Source of the DNA: an uncultured Clostridia bacterium
Lineage (GTDB): Bacteria; Bacillota; Clostridia; Oscillospirales; Acutalibacteraceae
Assembly (NCBI GenBank): GCA_927362715.1
Contig: CAKMIX010000016.1
Location: 1 to 57,801, forward strand
Direction: 5' to 3'
DNA length: 57,801 nt
A program made the translations under genes and the position numbers. Numbering within the stretch: position 1 is the stretch's first letter; each line of letters starts with the position of its first letter. Under the pieces are notes generated by a model. It searched no databases, was not told the DNA's origin, and was given only the letters and a program-made list of their open reading frames with translations. Of the stretch, positions 39,232 to 48,406 are shown piece by piece.

Positions 39232-39246
39232 TTGCAGGTGAAACCT

Positions 39247-40464
39247 ATGTACGGACTTTTGGGTGAACATCTTTCGCACAGCTTTTCCCCGCAGATCCAC
39301 GCGCGGCTGGGCGATTACGACTACAAATTGTTTGAGGTCGCGCCGGACGATCTCGGGGCGTTTTTGCAGGCGAAAAACTTCAATGGGCTCAACGTCACAA
39401 TCCCCTATAAAAAGGCAGTCATCCCCTTTCTTGCGGGGCTTTCCGACAACGCGCGGCGCATCGGCGCGGTCAATACGATCGTAAAGCGCGCGGACGGCAC
39501 GCTTTGGGGCGACAACACCGACTACGACGGCTTTTTTTACATGGTGCGCCGAAGCGCGGCGGAAGTCCGGGGCAAAAAAGCGCTCGTGCTCGGCACGGGC
39601 GGTGCGAGCGCGCCTGTCGCGGCGGGGCTTTCCGATCTCGGCGCGCGTGAGGTCATAAAAATCTCCCGCAGCGGGGAGAATAACTACGAAAACATTGCCC
39701 GCCACTATGATGCGGATATCCTGGTCAACACCACGCCCGTCGGTATGTACCCGAACAACGGGAAAGCGCCGCTTTCTCTGGAGGGCTTCCGAAAGCTTTC
39801 GTGCGTGCTCGACATCATTTATAACCCGCATAAAACCGCGCTTACGCTCGACGCCGAACGGCGCGGCATCCCCGCCTTCACGGGGCTTTCGATGCTCGTT
39901 GCGCAGGCAAAGCGCGCGGCGGAGCTGTTTTTGGGAACGGACATTCCCGACGCGCGCACGGACGAAATTCTCGCAGAGCTTGAACGCGAAATGCAGAACC
40001 TTGTGCTCGTCGGCATGCCCGGCTGCGGCAAGACCACGGTAGGCAAGGCCCTTTCAAAAGCCCTTTCCCGCCCGTTTTGCGACGCAGACACCGAGATCGA
40101 GCGCCGCGCGGGGAAGAACATCCCCGCGATCTTTGAAGCCGAGGGTGAGGCGGGTTTTCGCGCACGCGAAACGGCGGTGCTTGCCGAATTATGTAAGCAA
40201 AGCGGCGCGGTTATCGCGACGGGCGGCGGCGCGGTAACAATTTCCGAAAACATCGATATTTTGCGGCAGAACAGCATCGTGCTGTTTCTGAACCGCGACC
40301 CGTCTGCGCTCCCGACCGACGGCCGCCCCGTTTCGCAGCGCGACGGCGTGCAGGCGATCTATCAGCGGCGGCTGCCGCTGTACCGTGCGGTATGTGATTA
40401 TGAGATCGACGCGAACGACGCGATAGAGACAGTCGTACAGCGCATTTCGGAGGCAATACAATGA
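39247..40464 (+). CDS. Fused shikimate dehydrogenase / shikimate kinase
   Basis: This 405-residue protein catalyses two consecutive shikimate steps. Residues 1-250 are AroE: SHSFSP (10-15), NVTIPYK with catalytic K55, NTDYDG with D93, NADP loop GTGGAS (116-121). Residues 250-405 are AroK: Walker A GMPGCGKT (256-263), CDADTEIE (278-285), GGGAV (326-330) and the lid DGRPVSQRDG. Both catalytic sets look intact. The start is the ATG behind AGGTG. Its end overlaps aroQ by four bases. AroE-AroK fusion makes the dehydrogenase product pass directly to the kinase in one polypeptide. Confidence 0.93.
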   Translation: MYGLLGEHLSHSFSPQIHARLGDYDYKLFEVAPDDLGAFLQAKNFNGLNVTIPYKKAVIPFLAGLSDNARRIGAVNTIVKRADGTLWGDNTDYDGFFYMVRRSAAEVRGKKALVLGTGGASAPVAAGLSDLGAREVIKISRSGENNYENIARHYDADILVNTTPVGMYPNNGKAPLSLEGFRKLSCVLDIIYNPHKTALTLDAERRGIPAFTGLSMLVAQAKRAAELFLGTDIPDARTDEILAELEREMQNLVLVGMPGCGKTTVGKALSKALSRPFCDADTEIERRAGKNIPAIFEAEGEAGFRARETAVLAELCKQSGAVIATGGGAVTISENIDILRQNSIVLFLNRDPSALPTDGRPVSQRDGVQAIYQRRLPLYRAVCDYEIDANDAIETVVQRISEAIQ

Positions 40465-43705: not shown

Positions 43706-44428
43706 TTGGAAACATTTGAGATCGCAAACCTGCATGTGCGCTTTGATGCGCGCGGCGAGCTTTTATACACGCGCTCACGCCCGTATCTTGCAAAAGACGG
43801 CGCCGAAGCGGATTTCACCATTGACCTGTCGGAGGAATTCTTCGCGCGCAAGCACGAGCAGTACCCGCGGCTCACACTTGACGAGTGCCGGTACATGTGG
43901 GTGGGCGAGGCGTTTTATGCGCGGCTTTTGCAATATGACGGCATGCTGCTGCACGCTTCGTGCGTCGAAAAGGATGGGAAGGCCTATTTGTTTTCCGCGA
44001 AAAGCGGCACGGGCAAGTCCACGCATACGCATTTGTGGCTGCGCGCCTTCCCGGACAGCCGCATCATCAATGATGACAAGCCCGCTGTACGCCGCATGGA
44101 CGGTACGTTTTACGCCTGCGGCACGCCGTTTTCAGGCAAAACGGATGAAAATATCAATGTGCAGGTGCCCGTGCGCGCGATCGTATTTATAGAGCGCGGG
44201 ACGGAAAATTCGATCGAGCCCATCCCTCCTGCGGCGGCGATCCCGCTGTTTCTATCGCAGACGCTGCGTCCGCCGAAAAAAGCGGCCATGGAAACGATGC
44301 TCACCCTGCTCGGGAAGCTGCTCGAAGCCGTCCCTGTGTTCCGCCTGCGGTGTAACATGGACCTTTCCGCCGCCGAAACAGCGCTTGCAGGGATCGAGGC
44401 ATATTACGGAAAACAGGAAAAGGGGTAA
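43706..44428 (+). CDS. HPr kinase-like serine kinase (RiPP-type cassette)
   Basis: This 240-residue protein has a TTG start behind CGGAGG. The C-terminal half aligns in order with HPr kinase: LLHASCVEKDGKAYLFSAKSGTGKST (H83 and P-loop 97-106), then INDDKPAVR (D123/D124) in place of the LVADD metal-binding part, then GTPFSGKT (139-146). The HPr-recognition N-domain is replaced by an unrelated about 75-residue beta-rich part. Relatives of this kind occur beside PqqD-like proteins and in lasso peptide clusters of Firmicutes, where they phosphorylate peptide side chains. Here the substrate is unknown. First gene of a four-gene cassette, 21 bases after tatD. Confidence 0.8.
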   Translation: METFEIANLHVRFDARGELLYTRSRPYLAKDGAEADFTIDLSEEFFARKHEQYPRLTLDECRYMWVGEAFYARLLQYDGMLLHASCVEKDGKAYLFSAKSGTGKSTHTHLWLRAFPDSRIINDDKPAVRRMDGTFYACGTPFSGKTDENINVQVPVRAIVFIERGTENSIEPIPPAAAIPLFLSQTLRPPKKAAMETMLTLLGKLLEAVPVFRLRCNMDLSAAETALAGIEAYYGKQEKG

Positions 44429-44432
44429 TCCG

Positions 44433-44699
44433 ATGAAAATCAAAGAGGGCTTTGTTCTCCACGAGGTCGCCGGCAGCTTTGTCGCCGTGCCGCTGGGGGC
44501 TGCGCAGGTAGATTTCGGCGGCATGCTGACCTTAACGCCCGTGGGGGCATTTATTTGGAAATGCTTGGGAACGGACACGACGGAAGAGAAAATCGTACAA
44601 GCCGTGCTTTCCGAGTATGAGGTGGACGAGCCAACCGCACGCCGCGATGCGCATGCTTTCCTTGAAAAATTGCGCACGGCCGGGCTTTTAGAGGACTGA
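44433..44699 (+). CDS. PqqD-like peptide-binding (RRE) protein
   Basis: This 88-residue protein starts MKIKEGFVLHEVAGSFV. The pattern is that of PqqD-like domains: a three-strand N-terminal part (FVLHEVAGSFVAVPLG), an LTPVGAFIWKCL helix, and helices ending LEKLRTAGLLED. PqqD-like domains bind leader peptides and deliver them to modifying enzymes. It lies four bases after the kinase and is followed within four bases by the peptidase. No radical SAM gene is nearby, which is odd for a free PqqD. Confidence 0.85.
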   Translation: MKIKEGFVLHEVAGSFVAVPLGAAQVDFGGMLTLTPVGAFIWKCLGTDTTEEKIVQAVLSEYEVDEPTARRDAHAFLEKLRTAGLLED

Positions 44700-44703
44700 A
44701 GCG

Positions 44704-45153
44704 ATGGAAAAAAAGCAGGTTCGGCTCGAAGAGCTGCTGCCCGTCATGGAGGAAACGCTCGCTTCCGGCGGAACGGTGCGCCTGCCTATCACGGGTACGA
44801 GCATGCTGCCCCTGCTCGTTGCGGGGCGCGACACGGTGGTGCTCGCGCGCGCGGATACGCGGCTGCAAACCTATGACCTGCCGCTGTACCGCCGCGAAAA
44901 CGGCGCGTTCGTGCTGCACCGCGTGGTCGGCGTGGCAGAGGACGGCACCTATATCTGCTGCGGGGACAACCAATGGGTCAAAGAGCCGGGGATCCGCCAA
45001 GAACAGCTCATCGGCGTGGTCGCGCGCATCTGCCGCAAGGGCAGGGAATTCCCCGTCACGGCGAGGCGCTACCGGCTGTATGTGCGTTTGTGGGCGCTTT
45101 TGTTCCCCGTCCGGCGGTATCTTGTGGCATTGCGAGGGAAATTACGGAAATGA
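44704..45153 (+). CDS. S24/S26-family peptidase, soluble
   Basis: This 149-residue protein has the signal-peptidase-like order: ITGTSMLPLL with nucleophile S33, a basic stretch LYRRENGAFVLHRVV with H72 where SipW-type enzymes use His instead of Lys, and GDNQ (87-90). It lacks the N-terminal membrane anchor of signal peptidases; a moderately hydrophobic Arg-rich C-terminus (LYVRLWALLFPVRRYLVAL) may bind membrane. In this cassette it is a candidate leader-removal enzyme. Overlaps the exporter by four bases (ATGA). Confidence 0.8.
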   Translation: MEKKQVRLEELLPVMEETLASGGTVRLPITGTSMLPLLVAGRDTVVLARADTRLQTYDLPLYRRENGAFVLHRVVGVAEDGTYICCGDNQWVKEPGIRQEQLIGVVARICRKGREFPVTARRYRLYVRLWALLFPVRRYLVALRGKLRK

Positions 45154-46811
45154 AACGGGAAGACGCGCGTAAATGGATATGGAAAAGCGCCGCTAAAGTG
45201 CGGGGGCTATTGGTGCTGTCTGTTTTGGGCAGCGCCGTTGATTCCGTGTGCGCCGTGTCGCTTTCCCTTTGCGCGAAATATGTCATCGACGCCGCCCAGC
45301 GCGGCGATATGGCGGCGCTTGTGCGCGCAGGCGCAGCTGCTGCAGCGGTGATCTTATTGCATCTTGCGCTCCATATGCTCAACAAAGATCTGCAGGTGCG
45401 CATAGCGGGGCGTTTCGAGATGCGGCTCAAAAATACGGCGTTTGCAACACTTTTGGAGAAGGCATACAGCGCCGTTTCCGACCACCATTCGGGCGAGCTG
45501 ATGACGCGCCTGACGGCGGATGTGACCGTTGTGAGCGACAATTTTGCCACGCTGCTGCCGTCAGTTGCCGCCATGCTCGCACGGCTCGTGTGCGCGTTCG
45601 CCGTGATCGCAGCGCTTGACTACCGCTTCGCGTGCGTGCTCGCCGCAGTAGGGCTCGTGCTGTTTTTAGGCACGCGGCTGTTCCGCGGAAAGATCAAAAA
45701 AATGCACCGCGCCGTGCAGGAAAGCGACGGGCGGCTGCGCTCGTTTTTGCAGGAGGCGCTTGAAAACCTGCTTGCCGTGCAGGTGTTCGGTGCGTATGAC
45801 AGGACGAATGCCGAAGCACAGGCGCGCGGCGAAGAGAATTATACCGCGAAGCTCAAGCGCAACCGCTGGTCGATCTTGGCGAACACGGGCTTTTCCGCCG
45901 TGTTTTCGGGTGGGTTTTTATTTGCGCTGTTGTGGAGCGGCGTGCGCCTTTGCACGGGGTCCATCACCTTCGGCACGCTGACCGCGCTTTTGCAGCTTGT
46001 CAATCAGGTGCAAATGCCCGTTTCCAATCTCTCGGGCATCATGCCGAAATATTACGCCATGCTTGCCTCTGCCGAACGGCTTATGGAGCTTTCTTCGCTT
46101 CCCGACGACACGGCGCTGAACCCGCCGTGTGAGAAGCAGGCGCTTTGGGATTCGTTCACGGGGCTGCATTTGCGGGACGTGTCGTTTTCCTACGGCAGGA
46201 ACCCCGTGCTCCAAGACGTGCAGCTTTCGCTTCCTCGCGGGGAATTCGCTGTGCTCTCGGGCATTTCGGGCATCGGCAAAAGCACGCTTTTTAAGCTGCT
46301 TTTGGGCGTGCTCAAGCCCGACGCGGGCAAGGTGGAGATCGAAACAGCCGCAGGCGCGCTTTCGGCGGACAAAACGACCCGCGCGCTGTTTTCCTACGTC
46401 CCGCAGGGCAATCTGCTGTTTTCGGGCACGGTGCGCGAAAACCTCTGCTTTGTGAAGGCGGATGCGACCGAGGAAGAGATCGACCGCGCCGTGCGCGTGA
46501 GCTGCGCCGACGAGTTCCTGCGCGAGCTGCCCGAGGGGCTCGATACGCGGCTCGGCGAGGGCGGCAGAGGGCTTTCGGAGGGGCAGATGCAGCGCCTTGC
46601 CGTTGCCCGCGCCGTATTGACCGACGCGCCCGTTTTGCTTTTGGATGAGGCGACCTCTGCGCTGGATGCGCAGACCGAGCGCCGTCTTTTGCAAAACCTA
46701 AAAGCCCTGCCCGGCAAGACCTGTCTGCTTATCTCACATAAAACAGCGGCATTTGATGTGTGCGACCGTGTTCTGGAACTGCGCGAGGGTCGGGTTCTGT
46801 CTGTGCACTGA
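45150..46811 (+). CDS. ABC exporter (no C39 peptidase domain)
   Basis: This 553-residue half transporter has six membrane helices (about 15-290) and one nucleotide-binding domain. Walker A GISGIGKST (371-379), signature LSEGQ (475-479), Walker B LLLDE (E500) and H530 are intact. It has no N-terminal C39 peptidase domain, so leader removal, if any, must come from another enzyme, for instance the S24/S26 protein encoded just upstream. Its likely state is a homodimer. It closes the cassette; no terminator is evident before the next promoter. Confidence 0.9.
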   Translation: MKREDARKWIWKSAAKVRGLLVLSVLGSAVDSVCAVSLSLCAKYVIDAAQRGDMAALVRAGAAAAAVILLHLALHMLNKDLQVRIAGRFEMRLKNTAFATLLEKAYSAVSDHHSGELMTRLTADVTVVSDNFATLLPSVAAMLARLVCAFAVIAALDYRFACVLAAVGLVLFLGTRLFRGKIKKMHRAVQESDGRLRSFLQEALENLLAVQVFGAYDRTNAEAQARGEENYTAKLKRNRWSILANTGFSAVFSGGFLFALLWSGVRLCTGSITFGTLTALLQLVNQVQMPVSNLSGIMPKYYAMLASAERLMELSSLPDDTALNPPCEKQALWDSFTGLHLRDVSFSYGRNPVLQDVQLSLPRGEFAVLSGISGIGKSTLFKLLLGVLKPDAGKVEIETAAGALSADKTTRALFSYVPQGNLLFSGTVRENLCFVKADATEEEIDRAVRVSCADEFLRELPEGLDTRLGEGGRGLSEGQMQRLAVARAVLTDAPVLLLDEATSALDAQTERRLLQNLKALPGKTCLLISHKTAAFDVCDRVLELREGRVLSVH

Positions 46812-46930: not shown

Positions 46931-48406
46931 ATGGATTATGAATACGCCTCCGGGCAAAAAAAGGAAAATACGGAGGGCATCAGCGCCGAAACCGTAATGG
47001 TCTATACGCGCAAGCTGTTCAAGCGCTGGTGGGTCATTCTGCTGTCGGCCGTCGTGCTTGCTGCGGTCGGCTTTGCGATCGCACAGTTGACCTATGTGCC
47101 GACCTATTCCTCCCAGATCATGTTCGTTGCCAGCAACCGAAATTCTTCGCTTGTCACCTCGGGCCAAAGCTCGTCGGATATTCTTGCGGCACAGACGCTT
47201 GCGGGCAACTACCAGTATGTGTTTACGACAACGGAGCTGTCCCAGCGCGTTGCGGACAACTGCGGATACAAAAACATCACCGCCGAGGAGATCAAAAGCT
47301 TTATTTCCGTTGAGGCGGTCGAAGACACCACCATTCTGTATCTGACGGTAACGACGACCGACGCCGAAGTTTCGTATGCGATCGCCAACACCTATATGCA
47401 GTATTATGAAGAAGCGATCACCGAAGCTTTCCCGGCGACGACGCTGAAAGCCATCGACCCGCCTCTGCTGCCCGCCGCGCCGAACAGCGACAATTCCAAA
47501 ATCATATACACGGCGGTCGGCTTCCTTGCGGGTGCGCTGCTTTCGGCGGCTCTGCTGCTGCTTGCCATGGTGTTCAAGGATACCGTCCTCAACGCCGACG
47601 ACATCCGAAAGAAGCTGGGGCTGAAGATCATCGGCAACGTATCGCATGTGCCCGTCAAGACCAAAAAAGGCGAAAAACGCAGCATTTTGATCACGGACCG
47701 GCGCAGCGGCTTCGCCTTTATCGAAGCGTTTAAGATGATCCGGACCAAGCTCAACAATATCGTCCTGCGCAAAGGGCAGAAAGCGATCGTTGTCACCAGC
47801 ACGCTCGAAAACGAGGGCAAGACCACCACGGCGATCAACATTGCGCTCGCACTTGCCAAAAACGGCAAGGAGGTGCTGCTCATTGACGGCGACCTGCGCA
47901 AGCCCGCCGTTGCAAAGGCGCTCAGTCTCCCCGCAGGTGATGCGGCAGGGCTTGCCGAGGTCATCTCCGGCAGCCGCCAGCTTTCCGACGCGATCCGGTA
48001 TTCCGAAAAATACAACCTCTATCTGCTTTTGAGCGGTCCTGCAACGGTTGATTCGGCGGAGCTGCTTTCCTCGGAAAAAATGGAGGAGATCATAAAATCC
48101 GCCAAAAAGGAATTTGATTATATCATCATCGACACCGCCCCCTGCGGCGAGGTCGCAGATGCGGCGATCCTGGCGGGCTATTCCGACGCCATCGTCATGG
48201 TCGTGCGGCAGGACACCGCGCCCATCCGCCGTATTTTGCGCGGGCTGGAGAATCTGGACAACTCCGGTACCGAGGTCATCGGCTGCGTGTACAACGATGC
48301 CAAAATGGGCTTCGTCCAGCGCGGCGGCTACGGCAAATACGGCTACGGCTACGGGTATGGCTACGGCTACGGCGCGGAGCATGAAAAAAAGCGTTCGTCA
48401 CGCTGA
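46931..48406 (+). CDS. Fused Wzz chain-length regulator / BY-kinase
   Basis: This 491-residue membrane protein has TM1 (about 33-53), an extracytoplasmic Wzz domain, TM2 (about 191-214) and a cytoplasmic tyrosine kinase. The kinase has Walker A TLENEGKTTT (291-300), Walker A' LLIDGDLRKP (316-325) and Walker B YIIIDTAP (397-404). The tail has seven Tyr in 467-480, mostly GY repeats, the autophosphorylation cluster. Firmicutes usually split these into two proteins; the fused form is Wzc-like. Such proteins control polysaccharide export, yet no polymerase, flippase or glycosyltransferase is beside it. Single-gene unit with its own promoter and terminator. Confidence 0.9.
   Translation: MDYEYASGQKKENTEGISAETVMVYTRKLFKRWWVILLSAVVLAAVGFAIAQLTYVPTYSSQIMFVASNRNSSLVTSGQSSSDILAAQTLAGNYQYVFTTTELSQRVADNCGYKNITAEEIKSFISVEAVEDTTILYLTVTTTDAEVSYAIANTYMQYYEEAITEAFPATTLKAIDPPLLPAAPNSDNSKIIYTAVGFLAGALLSAALLLLAMVFKDTVLNADDIRKKLGLKIIGNVSHVPVKTKKGEKRSILITDRRSGFAFIEAFKMIRTKLNNIVLRKGQKAIVVTSTLENEGKTTTAINIALALAKNGKEVLLIDGDLRKPAVAKALSLPAGDAAGLAEVISGSRQLSDAIRYSEKYNLYLLLSGPATVDSAELLSSEKMEEIIKSAKKEFDYIIIDTAPCGEVADAAILAGYSDAIVMVVRQDTAPIRRILRGLENLDNSGTEVIGCVYNDAKMGFVQRGGYGKYGYGYGYGYGYGAEHEKKRSSR

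Follow-up and report, generated by a model that had tools for sequence, protein, structure and literature searches.

We have analysed a 57,801-nucleotide stretch of DNA (the window) from an uncultured Clostridia bacterium of the family Acutalibacteraceae (contig CAKMIX010000016.1), which at positions 43706 to 46811 encodes an HprK-like kinase, a PqqD-like recognition element (RRE) for ribosomally synthesised and post-translationally modified peptides (RiPPs), a Ser/His peptidase and an ABC exporter. Together with short precursor genes scattered over the genome, this cassette very probably forms a phosphopeptide pathway of the Linear Polyphosphorylated Peptide (LPP) type, the exported peptides of which most likely act with secreted partners. 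In the proposed pathway, the RRE would capture the Y-x-x-P-x-[LMI] leader of the small precursors, the kinase would phosphorylate a serine (the conserved serine of D-[VI]-[IL]-[TA]-x-S is the likeliest site), the leader would be cut off near the phosphorylation site by the signal-peptidase-like enzyme (F[ED]x and [IL][TA] are candidate cleavage points), and the ABC exporter would send out the acidic, glycine-rich tail. The phosphate may also receive another group from a nucleotidyltransferase encoded elsewhere. We propose leader capture, serine phosphorylation, leader removal and export on the basis of the LppAKBSDN chemistry, an ungapped match between RREs and an equal Ser-His spacing in the peptidases. 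In its own genome, the cassette would serve three precursors encoded in trans, on two other contigs, and each exported peptide would act together with the secreted protein encoded just upstream, a role we suggest because most precursors with readable upstream DNA directly follow a large secreted-protein gene. A first-pass annotation had read the four genes as a minimal phosphopeptide system that binds a leader, phosphorylates, cleaves and exports; this scheme fits both the LPP system as described in the main text of PMC13381572 and the candidate precursors on other contigs. That annotation had not anticipated the pairing of precursors with secreted proteins or the trans-encoded nucleotidyltransferase.

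The four-gene cassette

The genes of the cassette are the following:

43706–44428, + strand: HprK/PEPCK-type peptide kinase, LppK-like; 240 amino acids, TTG start, GGAGG upstream
44433–44699, + strand: discrete RRE, PqqD-like and LppB-like; 88 amino acids, 4-nt gap after the kinase gene
44704–45153, + strand: predicted signal-peptidase-like Ser/His leader peptidase, LppS-like; 149 amino acids, 4-nt gap after the PqqD-like gene
45150–46811, + strand: MsbA-like ABC exporter without a peptidase domain, LppD-like; 553 amino acids, ATGA overlap with the peptidase gene

The coordinates and the tight packing agree with the first-pass annotation. A purine-rich stretch lies upstream of every cassette start codon, and a promoter scan returned 0 sites.

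The kinase has an AKSGTGKSTH P-loop and an NDDK motif that is invariant in the alignment. It stays below every sequence cut-off in Pfam and NCBIfam (ScmC, 40.3 of 125 bits; HprK_rel_A, 25.5 of 200), although the fold predicted with AF2 from 31 aligned sequences (predicted local distance difference test, pLDDT, 95.1) is closest to HprK/P, which provides the best PDB matches (E 1e-6), with ATP-dependent PEPCK next. At E ≤ 0.001 there are 48 PDB matches, but their TM-scores (query length) are no more than about 0.3 to 0.5. The predicted fold and the invariant motifs are those of an HprK-like kinase, as in LPP.

The free PqqD-like domain scores 68.6 bits with PF05402, above the Pfam cut-off, and is the sole PF05402 match in its own genome (2.17 Mb, listed as 98.98% complete). 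Its matches include the solved RREs TbiB1 (5v1u; from a lasso system, highest score) and LppB (9x8z). Against LppB, the structure of which is a complex with leader, the window RRE aligns without a gap over 56 residues, 20 of them identical. Residues Y62, D72, F76, V37, L34 and L85 coincide with LppB groove residues Y60, D70, F74, V35, L32 and L83, while I41, V58 and L80 are similar at further groove positions; D72 corresponds to the residue for the tyrosine hydrogen bond in 9x8z. The first-pass annotation had made a RiPP role depend on a peptide-binding groove, most of which is kept, and by sequence comparison the protein is a predicted discrete YxxP-binding RRE, as in LPP.

No Pfam model reaches its cut-off with the peptidase, and the best NCBIfam match, sigpep_I_arch (archaeal signal peptidase), scores 25.9 of 51.85 bits. 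The peptidase model (32 sequences, pLDDT 91.0) matches SpsB, SipA, UmuD' and LexA, with a best E of 2.1e-3 and none at 0.001. Residues G31, S33, M34, P36, D43, G67, H72, R73, G87, D88 and E94 are invariant in 32 of 32 sequences. Because S33 and H72 are among these and the modelled fold resembles signal peptidases and LexA, the protein is consistent with a Ser/His enzyme related to SipW and the archaeal signal peptidases; the spacing of 39 between S33 and H72 equals that between S29 and H68 of LppS. The significant Pfam domains of the exporter are PF00664 (ABC membrane) and PF00005 (ATPase), with no C39 peptidase domain found among them, and its best NCBIfam match is TIGR02204 (MsbA_rel), below cut-off, which makes it MsbA-like as in LPP. 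All four family assignments of the first-pass annotation (HprK-like kinase, free PqqD-like domain, Ser/His peptidase, exporter lacking C39) are borne out, that of the peptidase weakly by sequence.

The gene set is conserved, as the first-pass annotation had proposed to check by genome context. In a family sample of 100 genomes, our own included, the kinase (E ≤ 1e-8) and the PqqD-like protein (E ≤ 0.001) have homologues in exactly the same 46 genomes (script comparison), and because of this co-occurrence the pair is a unit beyond chance; in 16 of the 46, no kinase match lies on the same contig as any PqqD match. Among 60 PqqD-centred loci (59 plus the window), 36 contain the kinase cluster, 25 the peptidase cluster and 24 the main ABC cluster. 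Searching genome contigs with a profile of the kinase alignment returned at least 535 relatives. For 80 of these loci, counterparts were counted from -1.5 to +6.5 kb of the kinase and on its strand only; they comprise PqqD (53), peptidase (38), ABC exporter (25), nucleotidyltransferase (18) and Wzz/BY-kinase (14), all of which are lower bounds because contig ends cut many loci. The kinase is present in 46 of 100 sampled family genomes and 51 of 197 sampled order genomes. Kinase-bearing relatives include the named strains Herbivorax sp. ANBcel31 (L198) and Acetivibrio alkalicellulosi DSM 17461 (L230; record flagged UNVERIFIED_CONTAM), which have kinase-RRE-peptidase-ABC-nucleotidyltransferase cassettes with a leader peptide approximately 1.5 kb upstream.

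Candidate precursors and their leader

Scanning the window for precursor motifs gave nothing credible, just a ribosomal S19-like open reading frame (ORF; by eye) and spurious ORFs, and the leader profile had no match on the window's contig. A shared start of short peptides was noticed among the small ORFs around relatives' cassettes, and a 24-column leader profile found three candidate precursors of 40 to 47 amino acids with a YxxP leader on two other contigs of the genome. The earlier suggestion that the precursor would be encoded elsewhere is thereby supported. Outside the window, the genome (G000) contains:

C10:11920–12063: candidate precursor MEKETYTKPQVDIVAFETDDIITSSSGSGNGGEIELPDLDLDLFLLP, found with the leader profile; AAAGGA ribosome-site-like stretch
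C12: candidate precursors MKHLYETPDFDVSVYDVEDIITISVGTGPVEGG..DGWLDI, two near-identical versions of 42 and 40 amino acids; AAAGGA stretch each
C6:35752–36891 (= L245 8253–9392): PF14907 nucleotidyltransferase, LppN-like, in trans to the cassette

With a 19-row, 28-position profile, two rows of which are own-genome peptides, the own peptides score E 3.6e-11 and 1.2e-10. Of the named loci, L160 has the kinase most similar to ours (61% identity) and repeats the kinase-RRE-peptidase-ABC-Wzz order of the window. Ahead of its kinase gene, and behind a gene for a protein that looks secreted (by eye), it has a precursor gene; this precursor shares 29 of 40 residues with a C12 precursor, including 16 of 17 in the tail.

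In 74 of 188 loci, a refined leader profile (E ≤ 1e-3) matched 87 ORFs; 84 of the peptides are unique, and some of the loci overlap. One reversed and two shuffled decoy sets gave 0 matches; of the 80 named loci, 17 have a match. In the 83 peptides used for the motif, Y is conserved at 91% and P three positions later at 92%, with L, M or I two positions further on. YxxPx[LMI] is followed by F (80%), D (83%), V/I, I/L/M, T/A, any residue and S (79%). Tails could be separated by regular expression in 35 of the 84 peptides; 32 have a net charge of -2 or lower and none contains cysteine. Neither NCBIfam (8 leader peptides) nor Pfam (7) assigned a family, and among 33 loci without a clear match, a search for more divergent leaders produced one plausible peptide (L059 4579–4698), the remainder being noise-like.

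One genome, G087, has eight leader matches on contigs C2, C3, C4, C8, C9, C17 and C34 (L120–L126), several with near-identical tails, and is best described as holding a paralogous set; the secreted proteins that precede the precursors at L121, L123 and L124 are almost identical at their C-termini. Leader model A1, consisting mostly of radical-SAM-linked, Cys-containing peptides, was dropped and has no own-genome match. In a parallel, radical-SAM variant (L050, L058, L069, L077 and L081; for example L058 6533–9827), a Cys-containing precursor (MKKxYxKPxIxFESFxLSxxIAAGC-like), the kinase, a radical SAM enzyme and PqqD stand in a row. A large-protein gene lies directly 5' of the precursor in L058 and L069, and an extra conserved small protein is encoded between precursor and kinase in L050, L058, L077 and L081.

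The first-pass annotation had advised looking for conserved small ORFs that co-vary with the gene set, and the leader behaves in this way. In the family sample, it occurs (E ≤ 0.01) in 25 of the 46 kinase/PqqD-positive genomes versus 0 of the 54 negative ones (Fisher p 2.9e-11), and in 14 of 35 versus 0 of 54 (p 3.0e-7) once the 11 genomes that supplied model rows are removed. An order sample of 197 genomes, 14 of them in the family, has 38 leader-positive (E ≤ 0.001) and 51 kinase-positive genomes, with 35 carrying both. Outside the family, 31 genomes have both, 14 the kinase only, 3 the leader only and 135 neither (p 6.7e-21), i.e., the kinase is present in 31 of 34 leader-bearing genomes; these p-values overstate independence because the genomes are related.

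That relatedness is also what would favour taking the leader ORFs for short proteins of a regulatory or unrelated kind, which occur in the same lineages as the cassette without being its substrates, as would the fact that secreted-protein genes, which often precede these ORFs (see below), are common in the loci (141 of 946 genes). We nevertheless find this very unlikely: the leader is absent from every kinase-negative family genome, the association persists outside the family, the profile matched no decoy, and Y-x-x-P, 91% to 92% conserved here, is a known RRE target according to the main text of PMC13381572.

Proposed secreted partners and the polysaccharide neighbour

Starting from 77 leader matches (E ≤ 0.05), 71 precursors remained after removal of short or duplicate ones, and 55 were tested for pairing with an upstream gene. 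For 43 of the 55, a same-strand ORF of at least 300 amino acids ends within 400 nt upstream, and in 40 of the 55 this ORF looks secreted by a simple rule, compared to 56 of 946 genes of the same loci that pass the same test (p 1.5e-32). For upstream ORFs of 150 amino acids or more (69 distinct ones), the median gap to the precursor is 29 nt, and it is 100 nt or less in 53. In our own genome, 27 nt separate the C10 peptide from a 736-residue cohesin protein encoded upstream of it, and 177 nt separate each C12 peptide from an upstream 434-residue secreted-looking protein. The bodies of ten scanned upstream proteins are diverse, with cohesin domains in one, InlB-type repeats, LRR_5 or DUF285 in others, and nothing above cut-off in some. 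By the last 160 residues, 28 and 13 of 69 upstream proteins fall into the two main groups of similar sequence, and a precursor lies behind 28 of 39 and 15 of 16 ORFs bearing either C-terminal group, counts that are partly circular because the models came from paired proteins and the loci were chosen around PqqD genes, kinases or precursors. When the C-terminal 54 residues of the cohesin protein were searched against our own genome, they matched that protein alone.

This gene pairing offers a concrete lead on the role of LPP-type peptides, namely the secreted protein encoded just upstream. We suggest tentatively that one cassette could mature a whole set of scattered phosphopeptides, each encoded immediately downstream of a secreted-protein gene, and that each might decorate, anchor or assemble its own secreted partner at the cell surface. 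If true, the system would be one of protein-partnered peptide maturation, and LPP-type peptides would have a function.

The gene directly 3' of the cassette points to another possible client:

46931–48406, + strand: Wzz/BY-kinase exopolysaccharide regulator; TIGR01007, 156.1 bits, above cut-off

The first-pass annotation had correctly placed a Wzz/BY-kinase here. The cassette could serve this neighbouring exopolysaccharide system, with kinase, RRE and peptidase maturing or regulating a polysaccharide component and not free peptides; besides the window, the 14 Wzz/BY-kinase homologues counted near the kinase in the 80 named loci speak for this, as does the frequent location of Bacilli LPP clusters in capsule loci (PMC13381572, main text). 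However, the search found no Wzz homologue within the range counted for the other 66 loci (14 being a lower bound), and the precursors follow secreted-protein genes instead. We regard service to the polysaccharide system as unlikely and the Wzz/BY-kinase as a conserved neighbour that probably stands outside the peptide machinery. Should the peptides prove to be anchored to polysaccharide, this alternative would merge with the partnered-peptide pathway proposed here.

The window Wzz/BY-kinase ends in a C-terminal YGKYGYGYGYGYGYG repeat, and a comparable YGYGYGYG stretch occurs close to the end of the L160 homologue. Type IV pilus-like genes (by eye) lie past the cassette/Wzz region in L160 (17280–20621, PilT/PilC/PilM-like) and L079 (3–1875, PilM/PilC-like). 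Elsewhere in the window, a single 410-residue ORF (39232–40464) looks by eye like a fusion of shikimate dehydrogenase and shikimate kinase.

Comparison with LPP and lasso systems

The LPP system was described for lppAKBSDN of Paenibacillus alginolyticus (Nat Commun, May 2026; PMC13381572), and our comparison uses the main text of that paper. LppB binds YxxP, and LppK adds phosphate to core Ser3 several times. The SpI/SipW-like peptidase LppS (S29, H68, D93) cuts the leader off after T-1, for which it needs LppB; LppN caused no change in the authors' host. The biological roles of LPPs are stated as unknown. Precursors were sought within the cluster or 5 kb of it, a range beyond which our likely precursors, far from the enzymes, lie. 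The cassette resembles LPP in its enzyme types and K-B-S-D order, in the predicted Ser/His signal-peptidase-like leader peptidase and the MsbA-like exporter, in the discrete RRE with a matching groove and the YxxP leader, in the lack of a cyclase in the cassette, and in having a nucleotidyltransferase in the genome and a polysaccharide gene nearby.

Several points weigh against an LPP-type pathway. At the groove, N33, V63 and T30 of LppB are T35, D65 and L32 in the window RRE (53 of 61 aligned RRE relatives have Asn at the T35-equivalent position), and the candidates for the third catalytic residue of the peptidase, E94 or D88, are neither clearly equivalent to D93 of LppS. The published LPP leader, YxxPxVLxHQxIxFETxxS, is retained as YxxPx[LMI], the rest differing and F standing at another spacing; FET occurs in 5 of 84 unique precursors and a D..[TA]xS-like site in 63. 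LPP core clusters include a nucleotidyltransferase, which the window cassette lacks, the PF14907 protein being on C6. The link between the cassette and the C10 and C12 precursors is comparative. In the family sample, 21 of 46 kinase/PqqD-positive genomes have no leader at E 0.01, and the 25 positives include two weak cases, G018, the sole match of which has an internal stop, and G080, the weak match of which is the radical-SAM-type peptide of L078. In the order sample, 16 of 51 kinase-positive genomes have no leader match, and 3 of 38 leader-positive genomes (G163, G171 and G206) have no kinase. Finally, the pairing test used a crude signal-peptide rule and loci chosen around PqqD genes or precursors, and 16 of the 71 precursors were left out because the upstream ORF ran beyond the analysed stretch.

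The available text of PMC7533575 and PMC9266682 describes lasso peptide clusters that combine kinase, PqqD and nucleotidyltransferase, and in some of them the kinase and nucleotidyltransferase tailor the peptide (PMC9266682). Paeninodin and pseudomycoidin share with our system an HprK-like kinase, discrete RRE, nucleotidyltransferase and exporter. The cassette could accordingly be an incomplete lasso locus, with the same RRE and kinase, a cyclase and B2 peptidase elsewhere, and phosphorylated lasso products; the YxxPx[LI] leader and the RRE do resemble lasso B1 systems, TbiB1 being the top-scoring solved RRE. Yet a B2-type peptidase (PF13471) was not found in the 98.98% complete genome, whereas a control search matched in 2 of 14 genomes, and we therefore reject a lasso origin, to which we assign hardly any probability. 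None of the three PF00733 (Asn_synthase) matches in the genome lies in the window; the third is weak and the two strong ones fall in open frames of 619 and 621 amino acids, which we take to be the length of ordinary AsnB. By eye, the precursor tails contain no obvious lasso core. Paeninodin and pseudomycoidin differ from our system in these absences (no B2 peptidase found, no cyclase in the window) and in their leader peptidase, and paeninodin-like leaders carry WxxP, according to the main text of PMC13381572, versus YxxP here.

SynChlorMet (ScmC/ScmD) and HPr-rel-A systems also pair a kinase-like with a PqqD-like protein, and ScmC is the best NCBIfam match of our kinase; identity with either was rejected on scores under the cut-offs (40.3 of 125, 26.9 of 100, 25.5 of 200 and 18.7 of 35). 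The word kinase does not occur in the available text of PMC12710340 and PMC7470986, and literature searches on SynChlorMet/PqqD, on standalone RREs with S24 in Clostridia, on RiPPs with dockerin, and on RiPPs with surface proteins and Ruminococcus found nothing relevant. In the main text of the LPP paper (PMC13381572), no word begins with Clostridi, surface or S-layer, and neither orphan nor in trans occurs; precursors scattered in trans and pairing with secreted proteins were not found in it.

LPP is the only system of this make-up recognised in the literature searched. Relative to LPP as given in that main text, our system is clostridial, its leader differs past YxxP and lacks HQxIxFETxxS at that spacing, its precursors are scattered in trans (up to 8 leader matches per genome), most of the tested ones behind a secreted-protein gene, and its nucleotidyltransferase lies outside the window's cassette. 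The kind of system is known, and the variant part is therefore a clostridial branch of it, with its own leader, trans-encoded precursors and pairing with secreted proteins.

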